From: Holosporales bacterium | GTDB taxonomy: Bacteria > Pseudomonadota > Alphaproteobacteria > RUG11792 | NCBI GenBank assembly: GCA_031260085.1 | Contig: JAIRKP010000113.1 | Location: 1-10,784 of the forward strand | DNA: 10,784 nucleotides | Reading direction: 5' to 3' | Shown here: piece by piece, positions 3,596-10,784 of the stretch | Layout of the letters: each line of letters begins with the position of its first letter | Position numbering within the stretch: position 1 is the first letter of the stretch | The notes under the pieces: generated by a model | The model's input: only the letters and a program-made list of their open reading frames with translations | Databases searched by the model: none | What the model was told of the DNA's origin: nothing | Made by a program: the position numbers and the translations under genes

Positions 3596-4045
3596 ATGGA
3601 AATTTGCCTGTTCGAACCTGAAATAGCTCAAAATGCGGGAACAATTGCCAGGTTGTGTGTTTGTTTTGGAATCGATATGAGTATTATAGAACCATCTTCG
3701 TTTATATTAACTGATAAGAACTTTAAACGAGCAGGTATGGATTATTTACAGAAAACAAATATCAAACTACACTCTTCATTTGCTGAATTTAAAAAACAGT
3801 ATCAGGGTAGAATAATATTATTCGATACTAAAGCTACTAAAAATTATTATGATTTTCAATTTCAAAATACAGACTGCTTAATATTTGGCAAGGAAAGTAT
3901 AGGGATTCCAAGGGAAATTTTTAAACAATGCGACGAGGCATTAGTTATCCCAATGATCAAAGACGCAAGATCCCTAAACTTAGCAATTACAGTAGCCATC
4001 GGCTTATCCGAGGCAATAAGACAGATTCATAAACATCTGAGTTAA
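3596..4045 (+). CDS. trmL: tRNA (cytidine(34)-2'-O)-methyltransferase TrmL
   Basis: A small SPOUT-fold (trefoil-knot) enzyme that uses S-adenosylmethionine to methylate the 2'-OH of the wobble base in tRNA-Leu isoacceptors, improving codon-wobble reading. The three SPOUT motifs are present: motif 1 FEPEIAQNAGTIAR (about residues 6-19), motif 2 LIFGKESIGIP (95-105) and motif 3 IPMIKDARSLNLAITVAIGLSEA (118-140). In the knot motif Asn128 takes the conserved place. At 149 aa it is the minimal TrmL type without an RNA-binding extension. The ATG start agrees with the family N-terminus and has AGGA at 3581-3584, a rather long 11 nt upstream. The gene stands alone. Its 3' side leads within 22 nt into a stem-loop and the first copy of the multi-hairpin repeat. 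Confidence 0.93.
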   Translation: MEICLFEPEIAQNAGTIARLCVCFGIDMSIIEPSSFILTDKNFKRAGMDYLQKTNIKLHSSFAEFKKQYQGRIILFDTKATKNYYDFQFQNTDCLIFGKESIGIPREIFKQCDEALVIPMIKDARSLNLAITVAIGLSEAIRQIHKHLS

Positions 4046-4056
4046 TATGAAAGATA

Positions 4057-4155
4057 TCACTTTTTATCCAAAAAGCTTAAGTTTTTTGGCCCACGGGGCG
4101 CGAGTATGGTATAATAATTATACCATACTCGCGCCCATAGTCTGTCAAGGATCAC
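4057..4155 (-). other. Repeat-borne mini-ORF with its own ribosome binding site (copy 1)
   Basis: Read on the minus strand, the second stem-loop of the repeat has AAGGAGGA (4170-4163), then 7 nt, then GTG (4155-4153). This opens a 32-codon frame through the palindrome, beginning MILDRLWARVWYNYYTIL and continuing APRGPK before ending at TGA 4059-4057. The first 23 codons are repeat-derived; only the tail is local. The same frame exists in copy 2 (from 7219) with two substitutions, Trp7 to Met and Tyr15 to Asp. Because the repeat itself is conserved as DNA, an open frame in both copies is not independent evidence of translation. I therefore record it as a candidate only. Confidence 0.2.
4068..4089 (+). 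terminator. A-rich/T-rich hairpin behind trmL (H1 of repeat copy 1)
   Basis: CCAAAAAGC (4068-4076) pairs with GTTTTTTGG (4081-4089) around TTAA, nine pairs including one G-U. It lies 22 nt after the trmL stop where a terminator is expected. The U-rich stretch is the 3' arm itself and no U run follows, so intrinsic termination is possible but not canonical. The same position before repeat copy 2 holds a hairpin of different sequence (7128-7154). Confidence 0.4.
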
Positions 4156-4177
4156 TTCGTTCTCCTCCTTGACAGAC
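4088..4177 (+). repeat. Multi-hairpin palindromic repeat, copy 1
   Basis: A 90 nt unit matching 7152-7241 at all but four positions (one inside the palindrome, three at 4136-4138 just after it). It begins GGCCCACGGG. It then holds a perfect palindrome at 4096-4136 with 20-nt arms around a single central base: GGGCGCGAGTATGG on the left, CCATACTCGCGCCC on the right. Next comes a second stem-loop, GTCTGTCAAGGA (4140-4151) with TCCTTGACAGAC (4166-4177), around a 14 nt loop. It lies 43 nt after the trmL stop, directly behind hairpin 4068-4089, whose last two bases it shares. No transposase is encoded. Confidence 0.9.
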
Positions 4178-4200
4178 CATATTATAATATATTTAATATC

Positions 4201-4335
4201 TCAGATCTCAGCACGGAGTTTCTTTTTTCCTATTCTTTTTAAGCTTTTCTCGTATTTGACGAGCATAGACTTCTTATTACAACCAGCAGCTGTCTGTCCA
4301 AAAGCATTAGCTATCTTTAGCGTTATAAGAGCTAA
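4201..4335 (-). pseudogene. Possible gene remnant, 44-codon open frame
   Basis: The stretch 4178-4422 is AT-rich and holds no intact gene. On the minus strand, 4335-4201 reads open for 44 codons with protein-like content: LKIANAFGQTAAG, then KSMLVKYEKSLKRIGKKKL and a TGA stop. No start codon or ribosome site precedes the frame, and in-frame TGA (4338-4336) and TAA (4347-4345) lie directly upstream. It could be the 3' end of a decayed gene. I do not recognise the family, and chance is not excluded. Confidence 0.2.
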
Positions 4336-4422
4336 TCAATTGGCTTACTCTATATATTAACCGTCTTAACCATTAGTTTTACCGAATTAATTCATACTAC
4401 AGATTAGATATCATCTAAAATA

Positions 4423-4942
4423 ATGCTTCGTCCGTGTTTGTGCTTTTTCCTCACCTCGAACAGGGACGTCTGTGGGGCGCACTGTGCCAACCGATTGTCA
4501 GCAATGCAGACGAGATCATCGGCGGAGCGACGCAGCAGGAACCAAATCGGCAACTCCCACAATCATCACACCACTGCACCCGCCTTACCATATGCTACCG
4601 GAAGCTCACCAACCCGATAGCGCCGCAGAGATCGGGCACGCGAACTCCTATCGACCACTTTCCGGGCTATTATTCATCGTTAATCAAATTTCTGAAGCTC
4701 GCTCTTCCCGAATATCCGATTACACAGATCAAAATGAGCAGAAAGAGGTCTCCGCCAAAATTGACGTTGTTACAACTTTGCCCCACAGATCACAGCCAGG
4801 GAATCCTATGCCAAACTCCGAGGAGCACGCCAACGCATGCTCCGACCATTTGCCCCGATCACTAAGTTCACGGGCATGTAACAACACCTACTATCTCGCG
4901 GTGACCCCAGCGCAGATAAACGCAATCAGCTCTTCCTAAAAA
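4423..4942 (+). pseudogene. GC-rich segment, possible decayed gene of foreign origin
   Basis: This stretch is clearly richer in G+C than its neighbours (36 of 60 in 4501-4560) and C-rich on the plus strand. It has open stretches in all three plus frames: from ATG 4423 (65 codons), GTG 4434 (143 codons) and GTG 4472 (155 codons, ending at the TAA around 4939). None has a Shine-Dalgarno sequence. The 4434 frame is the most protein-like at its start (LFPHLEQGRLWGALCQPI, then SNADEIIGGATQQ). The 4472 frame looks better later (NSYRPLSGLLFIVNQISEA and YYLAVTPAQINAISSS). This pattern would fit one gene broken by frameshifts, but high GC alone also lengthens chance frames. Composition resembles the secreted-protein gene at 9942-10658; I could not align the two convincingly. 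Confidence 0.3.
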
Positions 4943-4956
4943 CAAAGGGGACAAGT

Positions 4957-5023
4957 AAGGTCACACCTGGCCACCTTGGTTCTCCCCCAGCCCAACCGAA
5001 CATGGCTTGGGGGCAAACCAGGT
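4957..5023. repeat. Strong GC-rich hairpin cluster
   Basis: A long imperfect stem runs GGTT (4978-4981) with AACC (5016-5019), CCCCCA (4984-4989) with TGGGGG (5008-5013), and GCC (4990-4992) with GGC (5004-5006), around an 11 nt loop. Alternative outer pairings exist (ACCTGG 4965-4970 with CCAGGT 5018-5023; AAGGT 4957-4961 with ACCTT 4973-4977). It lies 41 nt beyond the stop of the leftward MFS gene and at the end of the GC-rich segment, so it may act as a terminator, but no U run follows on either strand. Confidence 0.5.
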
Positions 5024-5063
5024 ACCACAATTTCTAACGATATAGGAGAAAGTAATATCTCCT

Positions 5064-6323
5064 CTAAAATACCGCCTCCTTGTTGTTTTTACTTTTTGCT
5101 ATAAGATATAAGATATATCCCATAACGCCGACGGTCGCTAGGGATCCTGCGATAAATGGCCCTGCTGAGCCTTGCAACCCAAGAACTTGAGCAAATTTGG
5201 ATGATTCTCCTGCTATGTAATTTGAGCAAAATAAAGCTATGGCGTCGATTCCATAGTATATTGCAAATGCTGTTCCTATCAATGATTTCGGAGCCGATTT
5301 AGCAATGACTGAAGATAAAAGGCCGTGGGTCGATCCCATATGAATTCCGACGAGAATATAGACTAACACCATACTGAGCGTCCCGCAGGCAAACAAAGCC
5401 GTCAAGTGTGCTATCAAAAATATAAATGTTCCCCCAAGAAATATAAGTTTTTTATCAATTTTATCAGATATTTTCCCAATAGGAATGGCGATTATAGCTG
5501 CGCAGATTTCATACATTGCCATGAAAAGAGGAAAGCTGGCTATGTTATTAGGGAGAACTTCCTTTGCGCGAAGCGTCAGAAATCCTTCGCTAAACCTAGC
5601 AAACATAAGAATCGAAACCATTATAATAAAAGACCAATAAGATTTTGGCAATTTGGAAATGTCTTTTATATTCCACTTATGTTTTTGCGATAGTTTATTA
5701 TTTTTTTCTTCTTTATAGTTAATTTTGATTTTATTATTATAAATATATAAAGCTATTATTGTCGGAATAATTGCAAGCGTAAATATTAATCTAAAATTGC
5801 AACCTAATAATTTTACAATCAAAGATGTAAGAACTGAGCCTGTTAAATTTCCGGATATGTTCATCGTATAGCGGACTGAATATGCAAATCCTTTAGCAGT
5901 CGATATTTCGGCTAATATTGCATCTGATGGAGCTTGCCTCAATCCTTTTGCAAATCTATCTAATGATTTTGCAATGAAGACAAATAAAATGTTAAAAGAG
6001 CAGGCCAGTGATACTTTACTCAATGCCGTTAAACAAATCCCAGTGAATAACATTGACTTTTTTTTCTTAAATATATCTATCAGAAATCCAAAGAGTAATT
6101 TGGATATGAATGATAAAAATATAACAGTACCTTCGAGCAAGCCGAACGATTTATAGCTTCCTTTTAACTCATCTATTATAAAAATAGGAAGTAATGTAAA
6201 AATCATAGCTGAGGCAAAACCCCAAAAATAATGCATAATACAAAGCCAAAGAGCAATTTTACCATCTACACTGTTTTGAGAAAATTTAAAAAATGAGGAA
6301 ATTTTAGAAATCATTAATTGCAT
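5064..6323 (-). CDS. Major facilitator superfamily transporter
   Basis: A 419 aa multi-pass inner-membrane transporter with about twelve hydrophobic segments, in two halves joined by a basic cytoplasmic loop near residues 197-225. MFS loop signatures are visible: GFLIDIFKKKK (79-89) between helices 2 and 3, DRFAKGLRQAPSDAILAE (122-139), which resembles the DRxGKGxRxAPRDAL motif of one group of bacterial MFS permeases, and GKISDKIDKK (283-292) in the second half. The substrate cannot be read from the sequence; export of a small molecule or metabolite exchange with a host are both possible. The start is Met1 or Met4 (6314); neither has a clear Shine-Dalgarno sequence. The gene is divergent from the BioC-like gene, sharing a 72 nt promoter region. 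It ends 41 nt before the GC-rich hairpin at 4957-5023. Confidence 0.88.
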   Translation of the reverse strand: MQLMISKISSFFKFSQNSVDGKIALWLCIMHYFWGFASAMIFTLLPIFIIDELKGSYKSFGLLEGTVIFLSFISKLLFGFLIDIFKKKKSMLFTGICLTALSKVSLACSFNILFVFIAKSLDRFAKGLRQAPSDAILAEISTAKGFAYSVRYTMNISGNLTGSVLTSLIVKLLGCNFRLIFTLAIIPTIIALYIYNNKIKINYKEEKNNKLSQKHKWNIKDISKLPKSYWSFIIMVSILMFARFSEGFLTLRAKEVLPNNIASFPLFMAMYEICAAIIAIPIGKISDKIDKKLIFLGGTFIFLIAHLTALFACGTLSMVLVYILVGIHMGSTHGLLSSVIAKSAPKSLIGTAFAIYYGIDAIALFCSNYIAGESSKFAQVLGLQGSAGPFIAGSLATVGVMGYILYLIAKSKNNKEAVF

Positions 6324-6395
6324 AAAATTATGTTCGCAAACTTTTTACTATAATACTAAGTTATAGCTTAGAAGTTATGATTACAAGGAAACTTT
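6324..6395. promoter_or_regulatory. Shared divergent promoter region, MFS gene and bioC-like gene
   Basis: The 72 nt between two divergent start codons must hold both promoters or very short leaders. It is AT-rich with TATAAT-like strings (for example ACTATAATAC at 6348-6357, readable as -10 on the plus strand). An AAGGAA Shine-Dalgarno at 6385-6390 serves the rightward gene. No operator palindrome stands out. Confidence 0.4.
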
Positions 6396-7181
6396 GTGAA
6401 ATCTAAAATATGTAATAAATTTAATAAAGCTGCGAAAGAGTATGATCAGTATGCAAAAGTACAGATTGAATCTTCCAACTATTTAGCAAAAATTATTAAT
6501 AATGCTCTCAGTAATTTTGAAGTTAAATCGATCATAGACATAGGCGCCGGAACAGGAAAGACTACTCTTGCGATTAAGGAGTATTACCCTGAAGCAAATT
6601 GTACATTATTAGATATTTCGGAAAAAATGCTTAAACAAGCTGAGTCAAATATAAAAGATGTAAATATTATTGTAGCAGATGCTGAAAAGTATGAATTTAC
6701 TGAAATATATGATCTCTGTATATCTAATTTATCGGTGCAATGGTTTGAAAATCTTAAAAATTTTCTTGCAAAAATTAAGAATCACTGCAGATATTTTGCA
6801 TTCTCAACTCTATTAGATTCGAGTTTTAATCAATATAAAAATATGTTTATAAAAAAAAATATAACACCTCCAACATTTGAGTATTTTAACGAAATGAATT
6901 TAATAAAATTAATAAAGAGATATGGAAAAATTATTCAAAAAGACATTATTTCATATAACGAATATTTTCCGAATGCAGTCTCGGCTGCGCGTCAATTCAA
7001 ACAAACAGGGGCTAATCTTTCGCCGATTGAAACAAACAAAAATATGTCAGTATTGTTATCCAATAAACAAAAAATCGCTTTAGAATATGATATCTTTTTC
7101 GTAATTTTTAGAACAATAAGTTCAGTTGCCCGAAAAAACCATAGCTTTTCGGGCCCACGGGGCGCGAGTATGGTATCATAA
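6396..7181 (+). CDS. bioC: BioC-like malonyl-[ACP] O-methyltransferase with repeat-derived C-terminus
   Basis: A class I SAM-dependent methyltransferase that best fits BioC, which methylates malonyl-ACP to start pimelate synthesis for biotin. Seen: FNKAAKEYDQYAKVQ (residues 9-23), SAM motif I IIDIGAGTGK (46-55), the acidic ribose-binding LLDIS (71-75), ADAEKYEF (94-101), SNLSVQW (110-116), FAFSTL (134-139) and the late BioC signature SAARQFKQTGAN (196-207). The start is GTG with AAGGAA 5 nt upstream. The 261 aa includes an abnormal tail: residues 245-252 are encoded by a hairpin, and residues 253-261 plus the TAA by repeat copy 2, giving GPRGASMVS. The natural end was probably near residue 240-244. 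No other biotin gene is nearby, so the BioC assignment rests on sequence alone; a related methyltransferase is the alternative. Confidence 0.8.
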   Translation: MKSKICNKFNKAAKEYDQYAKVQIESSNYLAKIINNALSNFEVKSIIDIGAGTGKTTLAIKEYYPEANCTLLDISEKMLKQAESNIKDVNIIVADAEKYEFTEIYDLCISNLSVQWFENLKNFLAKIKNHCRYFAFSTLLDSSFNQYKNMFIKKNITPPTFEYFNEMNLIKLIKRYGKIIQKDIISYNEYFPNAVSAARQFKQTGANLSPIETNKNMSVLLSNKQKIALEYDIFFVIFRTISSVARKNHSFSGPRGASMVS

Positions 7182-7219
7182 TTATACCATACTCGCGCCA
7201 TCAGTCTGTCAAGGATCAC
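6992..7219 (-). other. Repeat-borne ORF antisense to the bioC-like 3' end (copy 2)
   Basis: This is the copy 2 equivalent of the mini-ORF at 4057-4155. AAGGAGGA (7234-7227) and GTG (7219-7217) open a 75-codon frame, beginning MILDRLMARVWYNYDTIL, then APRGPEK. It runs out of the repeat and antisense through the bioC-like gene. Everything beyond about codon 23 is a shadow of bioC. The ribosome binding site is good, but the frame is at least partly an accident of insertion. Treat as a candidate for spurious or repeat-driven translation. Confidence 0.15.
7128..7154 (+). repeat. A-rich/T-rich hairpin before repeat copy 2 (H1)
   Basis: GCCCGAAAA (7128-7136) pairs perfectly with TTTTCGGGC (7146-7154) around a 9 nt loop. 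It lies inside the last codons of the bioC-like gene and runs into the repeat. The structure is equivalent to 4068-4089 but differs in sequence. The 3' arm AGCTTTTCGGGC recurs exactly at 9396-9407. It may be the original terminator of the gene, now read through as coding sequence. Confidence 0.5.
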
Positions 7220-7241
7220 TTCGTTCTCCTCCTTGACAGAC
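7152..7241 (+). repeat. Multi-hairpin palindromic repeat, copy 2
   Basis: A 90 nt unit aligned with 4088-4177 without gaps and with four differences. The palindrome (core 7161-7199) carries C at 7177 in place of A, which breaks one pair. The second stem-loop, GTCTGTCAAGGA/TCCTTGACAGAC (7204-7215 and 7230-7241), is identical to copy 1 including its loop. The copy supplies the last nine codons and stop of the bioC-like gene. The A-to-C change turns the consensus tandem TAA TAA of this frame into TCA TAA. Confidence 0.92.
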
Positions 7242-7553
7242 TAAACCGCTAATCTCAGTTCCATATAAGAAACACTGAAAACTTTAGGATTTGTATACTT
7301 GAAAAGTGAAATTAGGCGATGTACTTTTTAAGTTGCCCGCCAAGCTGTAGATTGTCAGACTCGCGCCCCCGCAAATATTTTGAAAATCGTGATTTTCAAA
7401 ATAAGCAATGCACTCAACTCATGTGAAGTTGTAAACGATATGCTGCAATACGGTTACAAGAGTTAAGTAGAGTGATTTATTAAAGTAATATTATTTATAC
7501 CAGAATAAAATCAAAGTGCCCTTGTAAAATTTCGTAATTATAAAAATTAAATT
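7242..7553. other. Intergenic region between repeat copy 2 and tRNA-Arg
   Basis: These 312 bases hold no gene that I can support. They contain a perfect AT-rich palindrome (7376-7403) and an 11-base match, ACTCGCGCCCC (7359-7369), to the reverse complement of the repeat's GGGGCGCGAGT. That match could be a relic of a further copy. No clear U-tract terminator for the leftward tRNA-Arg was found. Confidence 0.4.
7376..7403. repeat. 28 nt perfect palindrome
   Basis: TATTTTGAAAATC (7376-7388) and GATTTTCAAAATA (7391-7403) are exact reverse complements around GT. It could be an operator for a dimeric regulator or a bidirectional terminator between the converging bioC-like gene and the proS/tRNA-Arg unit; as RNA it would form an 11-12 bp stem. 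No flanking U run decides the matter. The sequence is unrelated to the multi-hairpin repeat. Confidence 0.55.
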
Positions 7554-7630
7554 TGGTGTACCCGATAGGATTCGAACCTACGACCTCTTCCTTCGGAGGG
7601 AAACGCTCTATCCAACTGAGCTACGGGTAC
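7554..7630 (-). tRNA. tRNA-Arg (anticodon CCG), CCA encoded
   Basis: Reverse-complement reading gives the acceptor GTACCCG/CGGGTAC, D arm GCTC-AGTTGGATA-GAGC, anticodon stem TTTCC/GGAAG around CTCCGAA with anticodon CCG (CGG codons), T arm with TTCGAAT, discriminator A and encoded CCA (7556-7554). The length is 77 nt. It starts 26 nt after the stop of proS in the same direction, so it may share the proS transcript. Confidence 0.96.
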
Positions 7631-7656
7631 TTTTTACTTTGACAACTTTGCGCAAA

Positions 7657-9132
7657 TTAGTAACTTTTTGCGAAAATAGCTTCCATCGTCGTCTTTTCAC
7701 CGGTCAATATACAGTTACCCGGAGAATTATTTTGCAATAGAGGAATGCATCTTATTGTAACCGATAAATTATCTAATAGCTCTAAATTATTTTTAGATCC
7801 TGCCCAATTTGCCGTAACAAATCCGAAATCGTGTTCTACGAAAAATTCTTTTAATTCCTCAAATGAAGAAGCAGTTATCGATTTTTCTTTGTAGGTTTGC
7901 AGCACTCTTTCTTCCAAAATTTTATTATGTTGTTCTAATAACTCGTCTATTGAAGTTATAAATTCTTCTAATTTCAAATTAAATCGTTCTAAATTACTTA
8001 ATCTTTTTGTAAAGAATATAGTATTTTCGATTACTTCTTTTGATCCAATTTCACAAACAAATGGAACTCCTTTTTTAATATAAGCCCATTTTTTATCTTG
8101 CGGCGGCACATCTTTGATATCTATAAATGCTCTAATGTTCTTAGGTAAAGAGGTTTTTATTTTTTTACAATACTCTAATATTTCCTGTTGTGTTTTTTCA
8201 CCCTTAAACAAAGGTATGATAACGATATGATAAGGAGCTATTGAAGATGGTAAATTTAATCCATCATCGTCAGAGTGTGACATTATTAAGCCGCCGACAA
8301 TTCTTGTTGAAATTCCCCAAGATGTTGTATGCGCAAATTGCAAGCTTCCATCTCTTGCTTGAAATTGCATATTCACAGCTTTTGCGAAATTTTGCCCTAA
8401 ATAATGACTAGTAGCTGCTTGAAGAGATTTTCCATCTTGCATCATTGATTCGATGGTGAATGTATCAATTGCTCCTGGGAATTTTTCATGCTCAGGTTTT
8501 TTCCCAGGGATTGCATGCATCTTTAAAATATCTTGTATAAACCATCGATAAACCTCGTGCATTGTTTTTGTTTCATATTCAGCTTCTTTTTTTGTTTCAT
8601 GAGCTGTGTGCCCTTCCTGCCACAAAAATTCAGTGGTTCTAAGAAACATTCTCGTTCTCATTTCCCACCTGACGACGTTACACCACTGATTGATGAGAAT
8701 TGGTAAATCTCGATAAGATTTCATCCAATTAGCCATTGATTCTCCAATTATTAATTCTGAAGTAGGCCTAATTGCCAAAGGAACTTCCAATGACGCAGCA
8801 GGAACTAATTTACCATCTTTTTGCTCTAATCTATGGTGAGTAACAATAGCCATCTCCTTAGCAAATCCAGCAATGTGCTCTGCTTCTTTTTCAAAAAGAT
8901 TTATTGGTATAAATAAAGGAAAATAGCAATTGTGATGTCCCAATTCTTTGAATTTATTATCAAGAATATTTTGCATATTTTCCCATATTGCAAAACCATA
9001 TGGCTTTATTACCATGCATCCTCTAATACTCGAATTTTCAGCCAACTCAGCTTCTGTTATGACTTCTTGATACCATTTAGAAAAATCCTCTCTTCTTGTT
9101 ACCGATAATGCATTATTTCTCTTAATCGCCAT
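7657..9132 (-). CDS. proS: Prolyl-tRNA synthetase, archaeal/eukaryotic type
   Basis: A class II aminoacyl-tRNA synthetase that charges tRNA-Pro in the cytosol. At 491 aa it is the archaeal/eukaryotic-like form (TIGR00408 type). The N-terminus has DFSKWYQEVITEAELAENS then RGCMVIKPYGFAIWE. Motif 2 is FLRTTEFLWQEGHTAHET, and motif 3 is RIVGGLIMSHSDDDGLNLPSSIAPY. An anticodon-binding domain and a C-terminal extension ending in FAKSY follow. The bacterial-type editing insertion between motifs 2 and 3 is absent. Most of the zinc-ligand cysteines of the C-terminal domain are missing; RCIPLLQNN and GNCILTGEK remain, as in other bacterial members. Most alphaproteobacteria carry a shorter bacterial-type ProRS, so lateral acquisition is plausible. 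The ATG start fits the family but has no strong Shine-Dalgarno sequence. tRNA-Arg(CCG) follows 26 nt downstream. Confidence 0.96.
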   Translation of the reverse strand: MAIKRNNALSVTRREDFSKWYQEVITEAELAENSSIRGCMVIKPYGFAIWENMQNILDNKFKELGHHNCYFPLFIPINLFEKEAEHIAGFAKEMAIVTHHRLEQKDGKLVPAASLEVPLAIRPTSELIIGESMANWMKSYRDLPILINQWCNVVRWEMRTRMFLRTTEFLWQEGHTAHETKKEAEYETKTMHEVYRWFIQDILKMHAIPGKKPEHEKFPGAIDTFTIESMMQDGKSLQAATSHYLGQNFAKAVNMQFQARDGSLQFAHTTSWGISTRIVGGLIMSHSDDDGLNLPSSIAPYHIVIIPLFKGEKTQQEILEYCKKIKTSLPKNIRAFIDIKDVPPQDKKWAYIKKGVPFVCEIGSKEVIENTIFFTKRLSNLERFNLKLEEFITSIDELLEQHNKILEERVLQTYKEKSITASSFEELKEFFVEHDFGFVTANWAGSKNNLELLDNLSVTIRCIPLLQNNSPGNCILTGEKTTMEAIFAKSY

Positions 9133-9148
9133 GAATTACCAAATAAAA

Positions 9149-9265
9149 TTAACAAATTATATAACTTTTAGTATATTGCATGTACTTGCTCAATTCATAA
9201 CGGTTTTTAAGATTTTTATTTCTTATAAATGCCTTAGTCAAAAAATAGAATTCTTTGATTTTCAC
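9149..9265 (-). other. Small open frame with GGAGGTGA in front of proS
   Basis: The intergenic stretch 9133-9443 (311 nt) holds no clear gene. On the minus strand a GTG (9265-9263) opens 38 codons, beginning MKIKEFYFLTKAFIRNK and ending 16 nt before the proS ATG. GGAGGTGA (9269-9262), a full match to the 16S anti-Shine-Dalgarno core, overlaps this GTG. It is therefore too close for that start, and no ATG, GTG or TTG stands at normal spacing after it. It may be a leader peptide, a gene remnant or chance. There are no proline codons, so proline-dependent attenuation is not supported. Confidence 0.18.
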
Positions 9266-9355
9266 CTCCGCTGAACAATATATCTATGAGTGCGATATTA
9301 AGTGAAGTTTATGGATCTATAATTAAATTAAAAGTATACTATCTTACAACATTAT

Positions 9356-9407
9356 CCCGAACCATTCCTTCTTCTATGGGGACTCAAAAAACAGAAGCTT
9401 TTCGGGC
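9356..9407. other. Weak inverted repeat, relic of H1-type hairpin
   Basis: CCCGAACCAT (9356-9365) and AGCTTTTCGGGC (9396-9407) recall the arms of hairpin 7128-7154. The 3' arm is a 12-base exact match to 7143-7154. CCCGAA and TTCGGG can pair but across a 39 nt loop. It lies just downstream of the small leftward gene at 9444-9650. It may be a degenerate terminator family member. Confidence 0.3.
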
Positions 9408-9443
9408 TATTATGTTCATTAAATTTCTTAAGAATCAAAATCT

Positions 9444-9650
9444 CTAAGCGACATCTCCATCGCCATCTGGGCGATATCCTAAAATTTTTAGTTTCGTATG
9501 GACCTTTTCTAGCTCTTTTTTTATCATAATGTCTTGAAAATCTTTAACAACTCCTGAGCCGTCGTCTTTCACGTGAATTTTATTTTTCAACTCCCGCTCT
9601 TTTTCTAGCAACGACTGTATTTCATTTCGGCCTATTGAAAAAAAAGACAT
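9444..9650 (-). CDS. Small hypothetical protein, 68 aa
   Basis: I do not recognise the product. The translation is hydrophilic and mostly helical: NEIQSLLEKERELKNKIH, a central GSGVVKD turn, then KKELEKVHTKLKILGYRPDG, suggesting a short helical hairpin or coiled coil. It ends in an acidic DGDGDVA. There is no signal peptide or membrane segment. The ATG is chosen because MSFFSIGR reads naturally, but upstream there is only a weak GGTAA and no real Shine-Dalgarno sequence. It is the only open frame of note between proS and the secreted-protein gene, and its codon use is mixed but not unlike the AT-rich genes. It is divergent from the 9942 gene. Existence as a gene is moderately likely. Confidence 0.45.
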   Translation of the reverse strand: MSFFSIGRNEIQSLLEKERELKNKIHVKDDGSGVVKDFQDIMIKKELEKVHTKLKILGYRPDGDGDVA

Positions 9651-9941
9651 ACGTTATTACCGAAAAAGCATTCTATACTCATAGTCCTATATGAGAAAAA
9701 AATGTTCAAGAGAAAAAGTTAAAAAATCATTAAATTATTTGACTATTTATGCTCACAACGATTATTTAAGCAATAGTAAAATGAAAAGGTTCCTTCGACC
9801 TTGAAGGGCTCAATTTCCCTGAGATACACTTAATAATAGAAGTTGGGCGTCCATATCAAGCTCAAAGGGGAGAATATTTTCGAAATGGATATCATACGAA
9901 TACCAAATACGTCCAATACATTGTAGATAAGGAGAACCAAA
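9651..9941 (+). promoter_or_regulatory. Upstream region of the secreted-protein gene
   Basis: These 291 bases hold no gene. Two weak promoter candidates point right: TTGACT (9739-9744), with only poor -10 options at 17-18 nt spacing, and TTGAAG (9801-9806) with TACACT (9825-9830), spacer 18. CCTTC (9792-9796) and GAAGG (9803-9807) form a small hairpin over the second -35. AAGGAG at 9929-9934, 7 nt before the ATG, is a strong Shine-Dalgarno sequence. Confidence 0.3.
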
Positions 9942-10658
9942 ATGAAAGCAAATATTAAAAAGATATCATCAATAGCAGCCACAATAATGGCGACAGGATC
10001 GCTTTGCCCACAAACACAGGCAATGGACCACTTTCGGTTTCTGCATGTTCCCATAGTCCAGGATCCTGACCTATTCGTTGAGGTAGCGCCGGAGTTTCTT
10101 CCAGATCTCCCTCCTCCCGGCTTTGTTCAAGCCACATGGATCAATCTTCGACACTATCAAGCTCCTCGGGTTATCCCATTCACCGACGTCGCCGATGGCT
10201 TTGGGTCTGGTCTCTCAATTGTGATATTCATCCTTGGCCAAGCTCTCGACTCAGATACAGCAGCCTTTCGACCTCACTCCCTAGACACAATATTCCGACT
10301 CATAGAGCGGAACAGACCAACACCACAAACAATGAACGTCCTCCAACAGGCTGTTTCTTACTTTCTTCCACAAGATCCGCAAGCCCATATTCCCACCATG
10401 ACAGAAATTCAGGGCAATCCAGCTGGATTACATTATTTTAAGGCAATTGAGGAAACGCTGCTATTCCTACTGATAAACGATGGAATGTACCCTATTCACC
10501 AGGCATGTCTCGCTCATCCCGCAACATTTCAGTTGCTTACAAACAATGGACAACGCGCAGCTCCAATAGATAGTGGGCAGCAACTGTTTGAATCCCTCAA
10601 ATCAGCCGATAGTAGGCTATTTCCTCTGCCTCCCCCTCCTCCAGAGGTCTTTGCTTAA
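9942..10658 (+). CDS. Hypothetical secreted protein with Sec signal peptide
   Basis: A 238 aa protein that I cannot assign to a family. The N-terminus is a textbook Sec signal: MKANIKK basic region, ISSIAATIMATGSL hydrophobic core, and a likely cut after QTQA (Ala27). Cys22 lacks a proper lipobox, so a lipoprotein is less likely. The mature part is mixed: proline-rich near 50-60 (PEFLPDLPPPGF), then DVADGFGSGLSIVIFILGQAL, a predicted-helical middle, IHQACLAHPATFQLL and a proline-rich end (PLPPPPPEVFA). The start is well supported by AAGGAG 7 nt upstream. The gene is far richer in G+C than its neighbours (34 of 60 in 10081-10140), which suggests acquisition or a different evolutionary history. 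A periplasmic, surface or host-directed protein is possible. The gene ends 87 nt before the third repeat palindrome. Confidence 0.75.
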   Translation: MKANIKKISSIAATIMATGSLCPQTQAMDHFRFLHVPIVQDPDLFVEVAPEFLPDLPPPGFVQATWINLRHYQAPRVIPFTDVADGFGSGLSIVIFILGQALDSDTAAFRPHSLDTIFRLIERNRPTPQTMNVLQQAVSYFLPQDPQAHIPTMTEIQGNPAGLHYFKAIEETLLFLLINDGMYPIHQACLAHPATFQLLTNNGQRAAPIDSGQQLFESLKSADSRLFPLPPPPPEVFA

Positions 10659-10745
10659 GTCAACCAACCAGGGTGCCACGCTGGTGCCTCGGTTTATGGG
10701 GAAAAGTTTTAGGCTTGAGCAATGGTGTGCCGAGTATTAGAGCAT

Positions 10746-10784
10746 GGGCGCGAGTATGGTATAATAATTATACCATACTCGCGC
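10746..10784. repeat. Multi-hairpin repeat palindrome, copy 3 (cut by window end)
   Basis: From GGGCGCGAGTATGG to the last base of the window, this is identical to the copy 1 palindrome 4096-4134, including A at the position where copy 2 has C. The left flank differs: no GGCCCACGG precedes it and no H1 hairpin is seen, only GAGCAT. The second stem-loop, if present, lies beyond the window. Orientation cannot be told from the palindrome alone. It lies 87 nt after the stop of the secreted-protein gene. Confidence 0.88.

Follow-up and report, generated by a model that had tools for sequence, protein, structure and literature searches.

The window analyzed here, a 10,784-bp stretch comprising the entire contig G000:C33 of a Holosporales assembly (G000; 613 kb, 118 contigs, 64% complete), contains copies of a short palindromic repeat that we confirm as a large, dispersed, non-coding family across these Holosporales. 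A full copy is laid out as a hairpin (H0), a palindrome (A), and a second hairpin (B); its other strand, read against the A-then-B direction, displays a TTGACA hexamer in the B stem and TATAAT 20 nt on. On the sequence evidence, we put at about even odds (~0.5) the reading that this is a non-autonomous repeat, akin to miniature inverted-repeat transposable elements (MITEs) and repetitive extragenic palindromic (REP) sequences, that would carry a sigma-70-type promoter that faces outward, has an over-long spacer, and is probably weak or gated. The bacteria concerned are host-restricted, have genomes of ~1 Mb or less, and are expected to lose non-coding DNA; some of them keep tens to a hundred copies.

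The repeat and its promoter-like core

The repeat search returned a 108-nt pair that is 91% identical (4070–4177 and 7134–7241) and a 39-nt palindrome at 4096, 7160, and 10746. One full copy lies 3′ of a methylase gene and one 3′ of a bioC-like gene; the two 90-nt units delimited in a preliminary description of the window (4088–4177 and 7152–7241) indeed differ at 4 positions by eye (86/90 identical). In copy 1, palindrome A (4096–4136, forward strand; arms of 20 bp by the repeat search and 19 bp in the fold) is followed by hairpin B (4140–4177, forward strand; 12-bp stem and 14-nt loop in the fold). The −35-like TTGACA (4143–4148), within the B stem, and the −10-like TATAAT (4117–4122), 20 nt from it and pointing to lower coordinates, are on the reverse strand (hexamer coordinates counted by eye in both copies). 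Copy 2 has palindrome A at 7160–7199 (repeat search) and hairpin B at 7203–7242 (13-bp stem by eye), both on the forward strand, with TTGACA (7207–7212) and TATAAT (7181–7186) on the reverse strand and a spacer of 20. Folded as RNA, 4066–4180 reached −61.6 kcal/mol, whereas 200 shuffles averaged −22.0 and none did as well (z −12.2); the fold recovered the palindrome and 12-bp stem-loop already described, plus a third hairpin, H0, at 4068–4089 (forward strand). This hairpin, often found directly 5′ of A, and the one-sided TTGACA-N20-TATAAT were both missed in the preliminary description. Copy 3, palindrome A alone (10746–10784, forward strand), is cut by the contig end, the window being the whole contig.

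Two results are free of bias toward copies with a −10, and only these two: an arm count in G000 and a test in which sites were located by B alone. Across the 83 G000 copies with enough flank, the best −10 was an exact TATAAT on the 3′ arm of A in 71 and stood at exactly 20 nt in 65; the partner arm had TATAAT in 21 of 78 readable copies. Sites found by B alone had a −10 with at least 5/6 matches at 19–21 nt in 76/82 cases in G000 and 20/20 in three other genomes. The control, the mirror TTGACA of the B palindrome read in the other direction, had one at this spacing in 3/85 and 0/20, respectively, and at any spacing of 13–24 nt in 19/85 and 1/20 (82 and 85 of 88 G000 places were kept, those with >3 mismatches or too-short flank being excluded). 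Outside the elements in G000, a perfect TTGACA with a 5–6/6 −10 occurred 8 times at 16 nt, 8 times at 17, and 11 times at 20, with no clear peak.

A covariance model, R1, was built from 29 sequences and covers B and the −10 region. Of its 151 matches in eight genomes, 29 were read; 28 had TTGACA and one TTAACA, and all 29 had a −10 with 4–6/6 matches at 19–20 nt (the B-only set shares with these the genome G004 and one G004 site). TTGACA occurred in 11/11 genome consensuses. The consensus filter required T1 and A2 of the −10 outside G000; at the unforced positions, A4 and T6 were kept in 11/11, A5 in 10/11, and T3 in 7/11, and most spacer positions varied. Variants of the −10 include TACAAT, TATACT, and TAAAAT. 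Both hexamers are present on one strand and in sigma-70 order in G000 and in other genomes.

The family is large, as had been predicted from three copies. A 34-nt B core with up to 3 mismatches was found at 88 places in G000 (66 exact; 46 and 42 on the two strands), the reversed-pattern control giving 0. At E ≤ 0.01, R1 had at least 99 matches in G000 (best 147 of 574 candidates scored), at least 72 in the congener G001, at least 85 in G002, at least 44 in G018, at least 13–18 each in G003, G019, G020, and G049, and fewer in others; at least 17 of the 35 family genomes, G000 included, were matched, those with 1–3 matches being near the threshold, where chance hits are possible. Counts in G000 are lower bounds because the genome is 64% complete and in 118 contigs, some ending in repeats (G001 is 92% and G018 84% complete). 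Beyond the family, in an even 385-genome sample of the class searched at 1e-4 with stricter filters, matches came from just two genomes, G000 and G019, each a family member, with the best 13 candidates scored per genome. A degenerate B pattern run against one genome each of 84,980 species, a scan that may omit the own genome, matched only three bins (Iy174_bin24, Rs511_bin80, and Gsp477_bin1), all titled Holosporales bacterium; their isolate codes suggest a termite origin. In Rfam, nothing scores above its threshold at the element (the best family there, MIR2670, has 23.2 bits, its gathering score being 117), in line with the earlier remark that the sequence was not recognized as a named family. 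Among the papers listed by our literature search, judged by titles or starts of abstracts, none describes the repeat.

Palindrome A, which the preliminary description found in all three copies, is not the defining part of the family, as other genera have B without A and A-like palindromes occur without B. A separate palindrome precedes B in G000, G001, and g3, the genus of G003, G020, and G049 (GGCGCGAGTATGGTAT..ATACCATACTCGCGCC, GGGCGGATATGGTA..TACCATATCCGCCC, and GGGGCGCGATGTGGTA..TACCACATCGCGCCCC in the window's genus and g3). In copies read from G018, G002, G004, G046, and G013, an inner stem instead supports B (ACCGATTACC/GGTAATCTGGT, ACCGATTTAT/ATAAATCGGT, and others); one of the 30 model loci, L214, had no readable B and was left out. 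The long form in G018 and G002 has outer inverted repeats by eye, e.g., TTCCTTTTTGGA/TCCAAAAAGGAA and CTTTTGG..CCAAAAG, such terminal repeats being absent from the window's A-B form. G000 retains at least one long-form copy (C65:4111), and in some of its copies (e.g., C17:5977) the right flank resembles the right half of the long form.

The B stem of 11 pairs is paired in 99.4% of cells across genomes, with two-sided changes at 4 pairs, against at most 48.9% in slid controls. In the sequences compared, palindrome A is replaceable, B having a longer stem in its place in several genera; hairpin B with its opposite-strand TTGACA-N19–21-TATAAT-like core is what is retained. Copies are similar within a genome and different between genomes. 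Most G000 copies and 7/10 G018 copies found share an identical 30-nt B core, and none within 3 mismatches occurs in the congener G001, a distribution that would be explained if lineages had exchanged it or if two B types had survived to different extents. As separate observations, A-like palindromes of a second kind (e.g., GGCGCAATTATGGTAAAATAATTATACCATAATTGCGCC) occur without B in G000 at C40:10565, C25:6655, C38:5500, C35:3772, and C65:4485. The H0 hairpins (..GAAAAGC NNNN GCTTTTC..) stand directly 5′ of A in the window, including at copy 2 (GCCCGAAAA..TTTTCGGGC, 7128–7154, forward strand, by eye), and in many G000 copies, also occur without A, and have outer stems whose sequence varies among copies with pairing kept (by eye). 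H0 was considered as a host terminator, and no T tract lies 3′ of it in the copies read by eye.

Position relative to genes, gain, and loss

Genes in G000 were called with a simple longest-ORF (open reading frame) script in 184 kb of the 613 kb, and the calls are crude. A called gene adjoins the A side in 73 copies; the placement at gene 3′ ends in the preliminary description holds for 40 of them, and the other 33 face a 5′ end, so 3′ ends are not exclusive. What does stand is that the A side closely abuts genes, with a median distance of 41.5 bp to a 3′ end and 103 bp to a 5′ end, against 291 and 400 bp on the B side, which opens on long intergenic DNA (Mann–Whitney p = 6e-10). The A side is nearer to genes in G001 also (p = 0.009; 18 copies placed of 72 model matches). 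Neighboring copies less than 1.3 kb apart (14 pairs, a count that includes two degenerate copies with 4 and 6 mismatches) were arranged A-B..B-A in 12 cases, in tandem in 2, and in the reverse order in 0 (binomial against one quarter, p = 3e-6); intergenic islands therefore often have outward-pointing copies at both ends, and the DNA between paired copies is a mosaic of other palindromic repeats. A role as host-gene promoter was rejected, there being no significant preference for facing gene starts.

Comparison of orthologous loci in G000 and G001 gave a divided outcome, with a difference in presence at two loci and a mixed picture by eye over all 23 alignments of element-adjacent genes. The bioC-like methyltransferase ORF of the window (6396–7181, forward strand) ends ..EYDIFFVIFRTISSVARKNHSFSGPRGASMVS, its final codons lying within H0 and palindrome A of copy 2 and its TAA stop at the center of A. 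The G001 orthologue, 58–60% identical, ends ..EYDIFFAVLIAS, before the C-terminal extension of the window protein, and no element occurs in the 500 bases downstream of it. Of 8 homologues read, 6 have their C-terminus no more than 6 residues from the aligned part, and two run on for 17 and 44 residues. The difference suggests that, in the lineage of the window, an element inserted at the end of the gene. At the second locus, two genes lie 6 bp apart in G000 (C16), and an element stands between their orthologues in G001 (L122). Elsewhere, the element is on the same side and in the same orientation in both genomes at some loci (e.g., C39, C65, C88, and C94) and not at others (e.g., C16, C25, C35, and C61). 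No clean empty site was found for 73 copies when their joined 80-nt flanks were compared with the assembled DNA examined; the 25 junction-spanning alignments were each the source copy itself or a weak (64–75%) similarity.

We also considered an origin as RAYT-mobilized REP sequences and set it aside on the assemblies searched. The best Y1_Tnp matches in G000, G001, and G018 (assemblies 64, 92, and 84% complete) are partial (65–104, 62–121, and 1–37 of 121 positions) and unrelated to element numbers, G002 having 83 elements at E ≤ 0.001 and no Y1 match, and G006 having 88 Y1 matches and 1 element. Many of the 88 matches in G006, a 1.1-Mb relative, are partial or contain stops (IS200-type transposases).

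Interpretation and rival explanations

The repeat has no coding capacity, and the conceptual likeness to REP/BIME, MITE, and Rickettsia palindromic elements drawn in the preliminary description was upheld. Rickettsia palindromic elements are dispersed palindromes in host-dependent Alphaproteobacteria; on comparison by description only, one copy of the present repeat resembles them in extending a reading frame, unlike most copies, which lie outside called ORFs. Correia elements (CREE/NEMIS, Neisseria) and other MITEs with sigma-70-like promoters are likewise small, non-coding, hairpin-forming, promoter-like, and present in tens to hundreds of copies (PMC10969869, PMC2229807). The present repeat is small and non-coding, has many copies, and in its long form has, by eye, inverted repeats at its ends. 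However, the hosts differ, the spacer here is 19–21 nt, window copies are two adjacent hairpins without paired ends, and no target-site duplication was seen (73 copies, no clean empty site); the likeness to Correia elements is one of description.

REP/BIME elements (GTAG-/CGTC-tagged and RAYT-associated; PMC3733652) are likewise short intergenic palindromes with side-by-side hairpin modules and head-to-head pairs, whereas our repeat has no conserved GTAG or CGTC tag (83 own copies and 29 cross-genome copies, by eye) and only the partial Y1 transposase matches given above. The Caulobacter CIR (PMC2229807) are also alphaproteobacterial intergenic repeats with two arms and a linker; unlike them, the own-genome consensus lacks a GANTC methylation site (by eye). 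MerR-type promoters, with hexamers 19–20 nt apart (PMC1526738, PMC11049809), share their spacer with our repeat (a few copies have 21 nt), but here, by eye in 29 copies, no dyad lies within the spacer, palindrome A spans the −10, and the core sits on a dispersed repeat. MITEs with sigma-70-like promoters have been described (PMC10969869); the present one has neither REP tags nor the CIR site.

In the reading we prefer, the conserved core, a TTGACA-N20-TATAAT that runs counter to the A-to-B direction, would be an outward-facing promoter. Its −35 block is built into the hairpin B stem; its −10 block lies, in the window's genus and g3, at the tip of palindrome A and, in other genera, beside an inner stem under B. 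With the promoter end (the A side) toward the adjoining gene, the neighbor could be read in sense or antisense, and transcripts arriving from it would meet the hairpins as a 3′ roadblock. We infer that RNA polymerase would use the hexamers, that the bioC difference was probably made by insertion, and that the element may have been moved by an enzyme or by recombination. A core surviving replacement of its palindromes would reveal what selection keeps in such repeats and would supply these uncultured bacteria with portable sense and antisense promoters.

Several points weigh against this reading. The usual sigma-70 spacer is 17 nt; that of the repeat is 19–21 nt, mostly 20, i.e., 3 nt longer, and a promoter of this kind would need an extended −10 or an activator that distorts DNA so as not to be weak. 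TGn does not flank the −10 in every copy (8 of the G018 copies compared have CGG), and the −10 is missing from a G018 copy, L103, in which the left half is altered. The R1 model includes the −10 columns, and its counts, the 29 copies read, and the consensuses favor −10-bearing copies. Non-edge A-like palindromes without B carry TATAAT on exactly one arm in 7/8 cases (by eye), and the asymmetry therefore does not need B; shared ancestry, not selection, could preserve part of the pattern. A promoter also does not explain why the B loop is conserved. Finally, the hexamers are intact in 29/33 copies facing a gene start and 29/40 facing a gene end (p = 0.15), which makes selection by host genes less likely and favors either a function in the life of the element itself or a recent origin of the copies.

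A more specific form of the promoter reading, which we regard as quite improbable, holds that the promoter halves are locked in palindromic DNA about a hundred-fold, would be off on relaxed B-form DNA, and would be switched by an underwinding regulator or by hairpin extrusion. Extrusion would bring the hexamers to a near-normal distance, the paired bases between them, were A and B to stack, numbering by our own count 17 in copy 1 and 16 in a typical G001 copy. If true, this would be a genome-wide promoter network, gated by topology or by a regulator, and kept across several genera while the palindromes were rebuilt.

Among the other explanations, functionless palindromes, selfish or decaying and kept uniform via recombination or recent amplification, would account for copies that are alike within and unlike between genomes, for their embedding in mosaics of other palindromic repeats, and for a promoter side with no clear preference for gene starts, the two blocks being simply the oldest common part. 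We consider this somewhat unlikely, as the blocks and the distance between them were kept, on one side of B only, through a turnover of most of the spacer and outer stems. Unlikely as well is an action as RNA, in which the hairpins at gene ends would stabilize or end transcripts in a REP/BIME-like manner and the hexamers would be irrelevant. The very stable consecutive hairpins, the covarying B stem, and the short median distance where A faces a 3′ end are as this would predict, but gene starts are faced almost as often, no copy read by eye has a T tract directly 3′ of A or B, and pairing leaves the one-arm TATAAT unexplained.

It is distinctly unlikely that the two blocks are recognition sites of a moving enzyme (a transposase, recombinase, or Y1-type nuclease) whose likeness to sigma-70 hexamers would be coincidental or secondary. 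The numbers of the family and its difference from genome to genome, a palindromic GTCAAGG/CCTTGAC that is its strictest part, the conserved B loop, and the Y1_Tnp remnants in G000, G001, and G018 would fit such an enzyme; against it, the blocks are identical to the two sigma-70 consensus hexamers and stand on one strand in the order a promoter requires, and the remnants are incomplete and do not follow element numbers. Single-strand-priming origins, known as complementary-strand origins of phages or plasmids, were dropped because the conserved −10 is not where a folded template strand would need it. An assembly artefact would be in keeping with the incompleteness of the bin and with contigs that end in repeats (the window, and cut copies on C5, C24, C34, C52, C72, and C116), yet flanks differ among copies and separately assembled relatives have the same family, which makes it exceedingly improbable.

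Window genes and other dispersed repeats

By the ORF list and Pfam, the window encodes MotA/ExbB-like, prfA-like, and ftsQ-like genes, tRNA-Asn, a SpoU-type methylase, an MFS gene, the bioC-like methyltransferase, tRNA-Arg, a proS-like gene, and a 238-amino-acid ORF without a Pfam match. The SpoU-type RNA methylase gene 5′ of copy 1 (3596–4045, forward strand; Pfam SpoU_methylase, 2.4e-33) has its stop 50 bp from palindrome A.

Two other kinds of dispersed sequence were noted. The consensus of parS, the ParB centromere (TGTTNCACGTGNAACA), occurs at 156 sites in the 0.9-Mb genome G010, 61 in G002, 23 in G000, and 7 in G001, with 0–11 sites in the other 31 of 35 genomes; a parB gene is present in 27/35. 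Four of the 23 G000 sites are on the parB contig C85 (e.g., C85:225–1015), several others are in intergenic repeat mosaics, and further examples are L155–L172. Binding of ParB to these dispersed sites would be remarkable if true. Another repeat of ~75 nt with a four-way-junction fold (L031:1020–1110, G000:C3; also on C49, C94, and C103) encloses three perfect hairpins in an outer stem, GACGCGATTAT/ATAATCGCGTC (z −8.9); further copies were found by blast, and four with exact inner arms occur in the 184 kb of G000 examined.

The G+C content of the window rises to 45–52% in two islands, 4501–5100 and 9901–10500, the other listed 300-bp windows having 24–44%. The second island contains the 238-amino-acid ORF (9942–10658), and the first may be degraded coding sequence.

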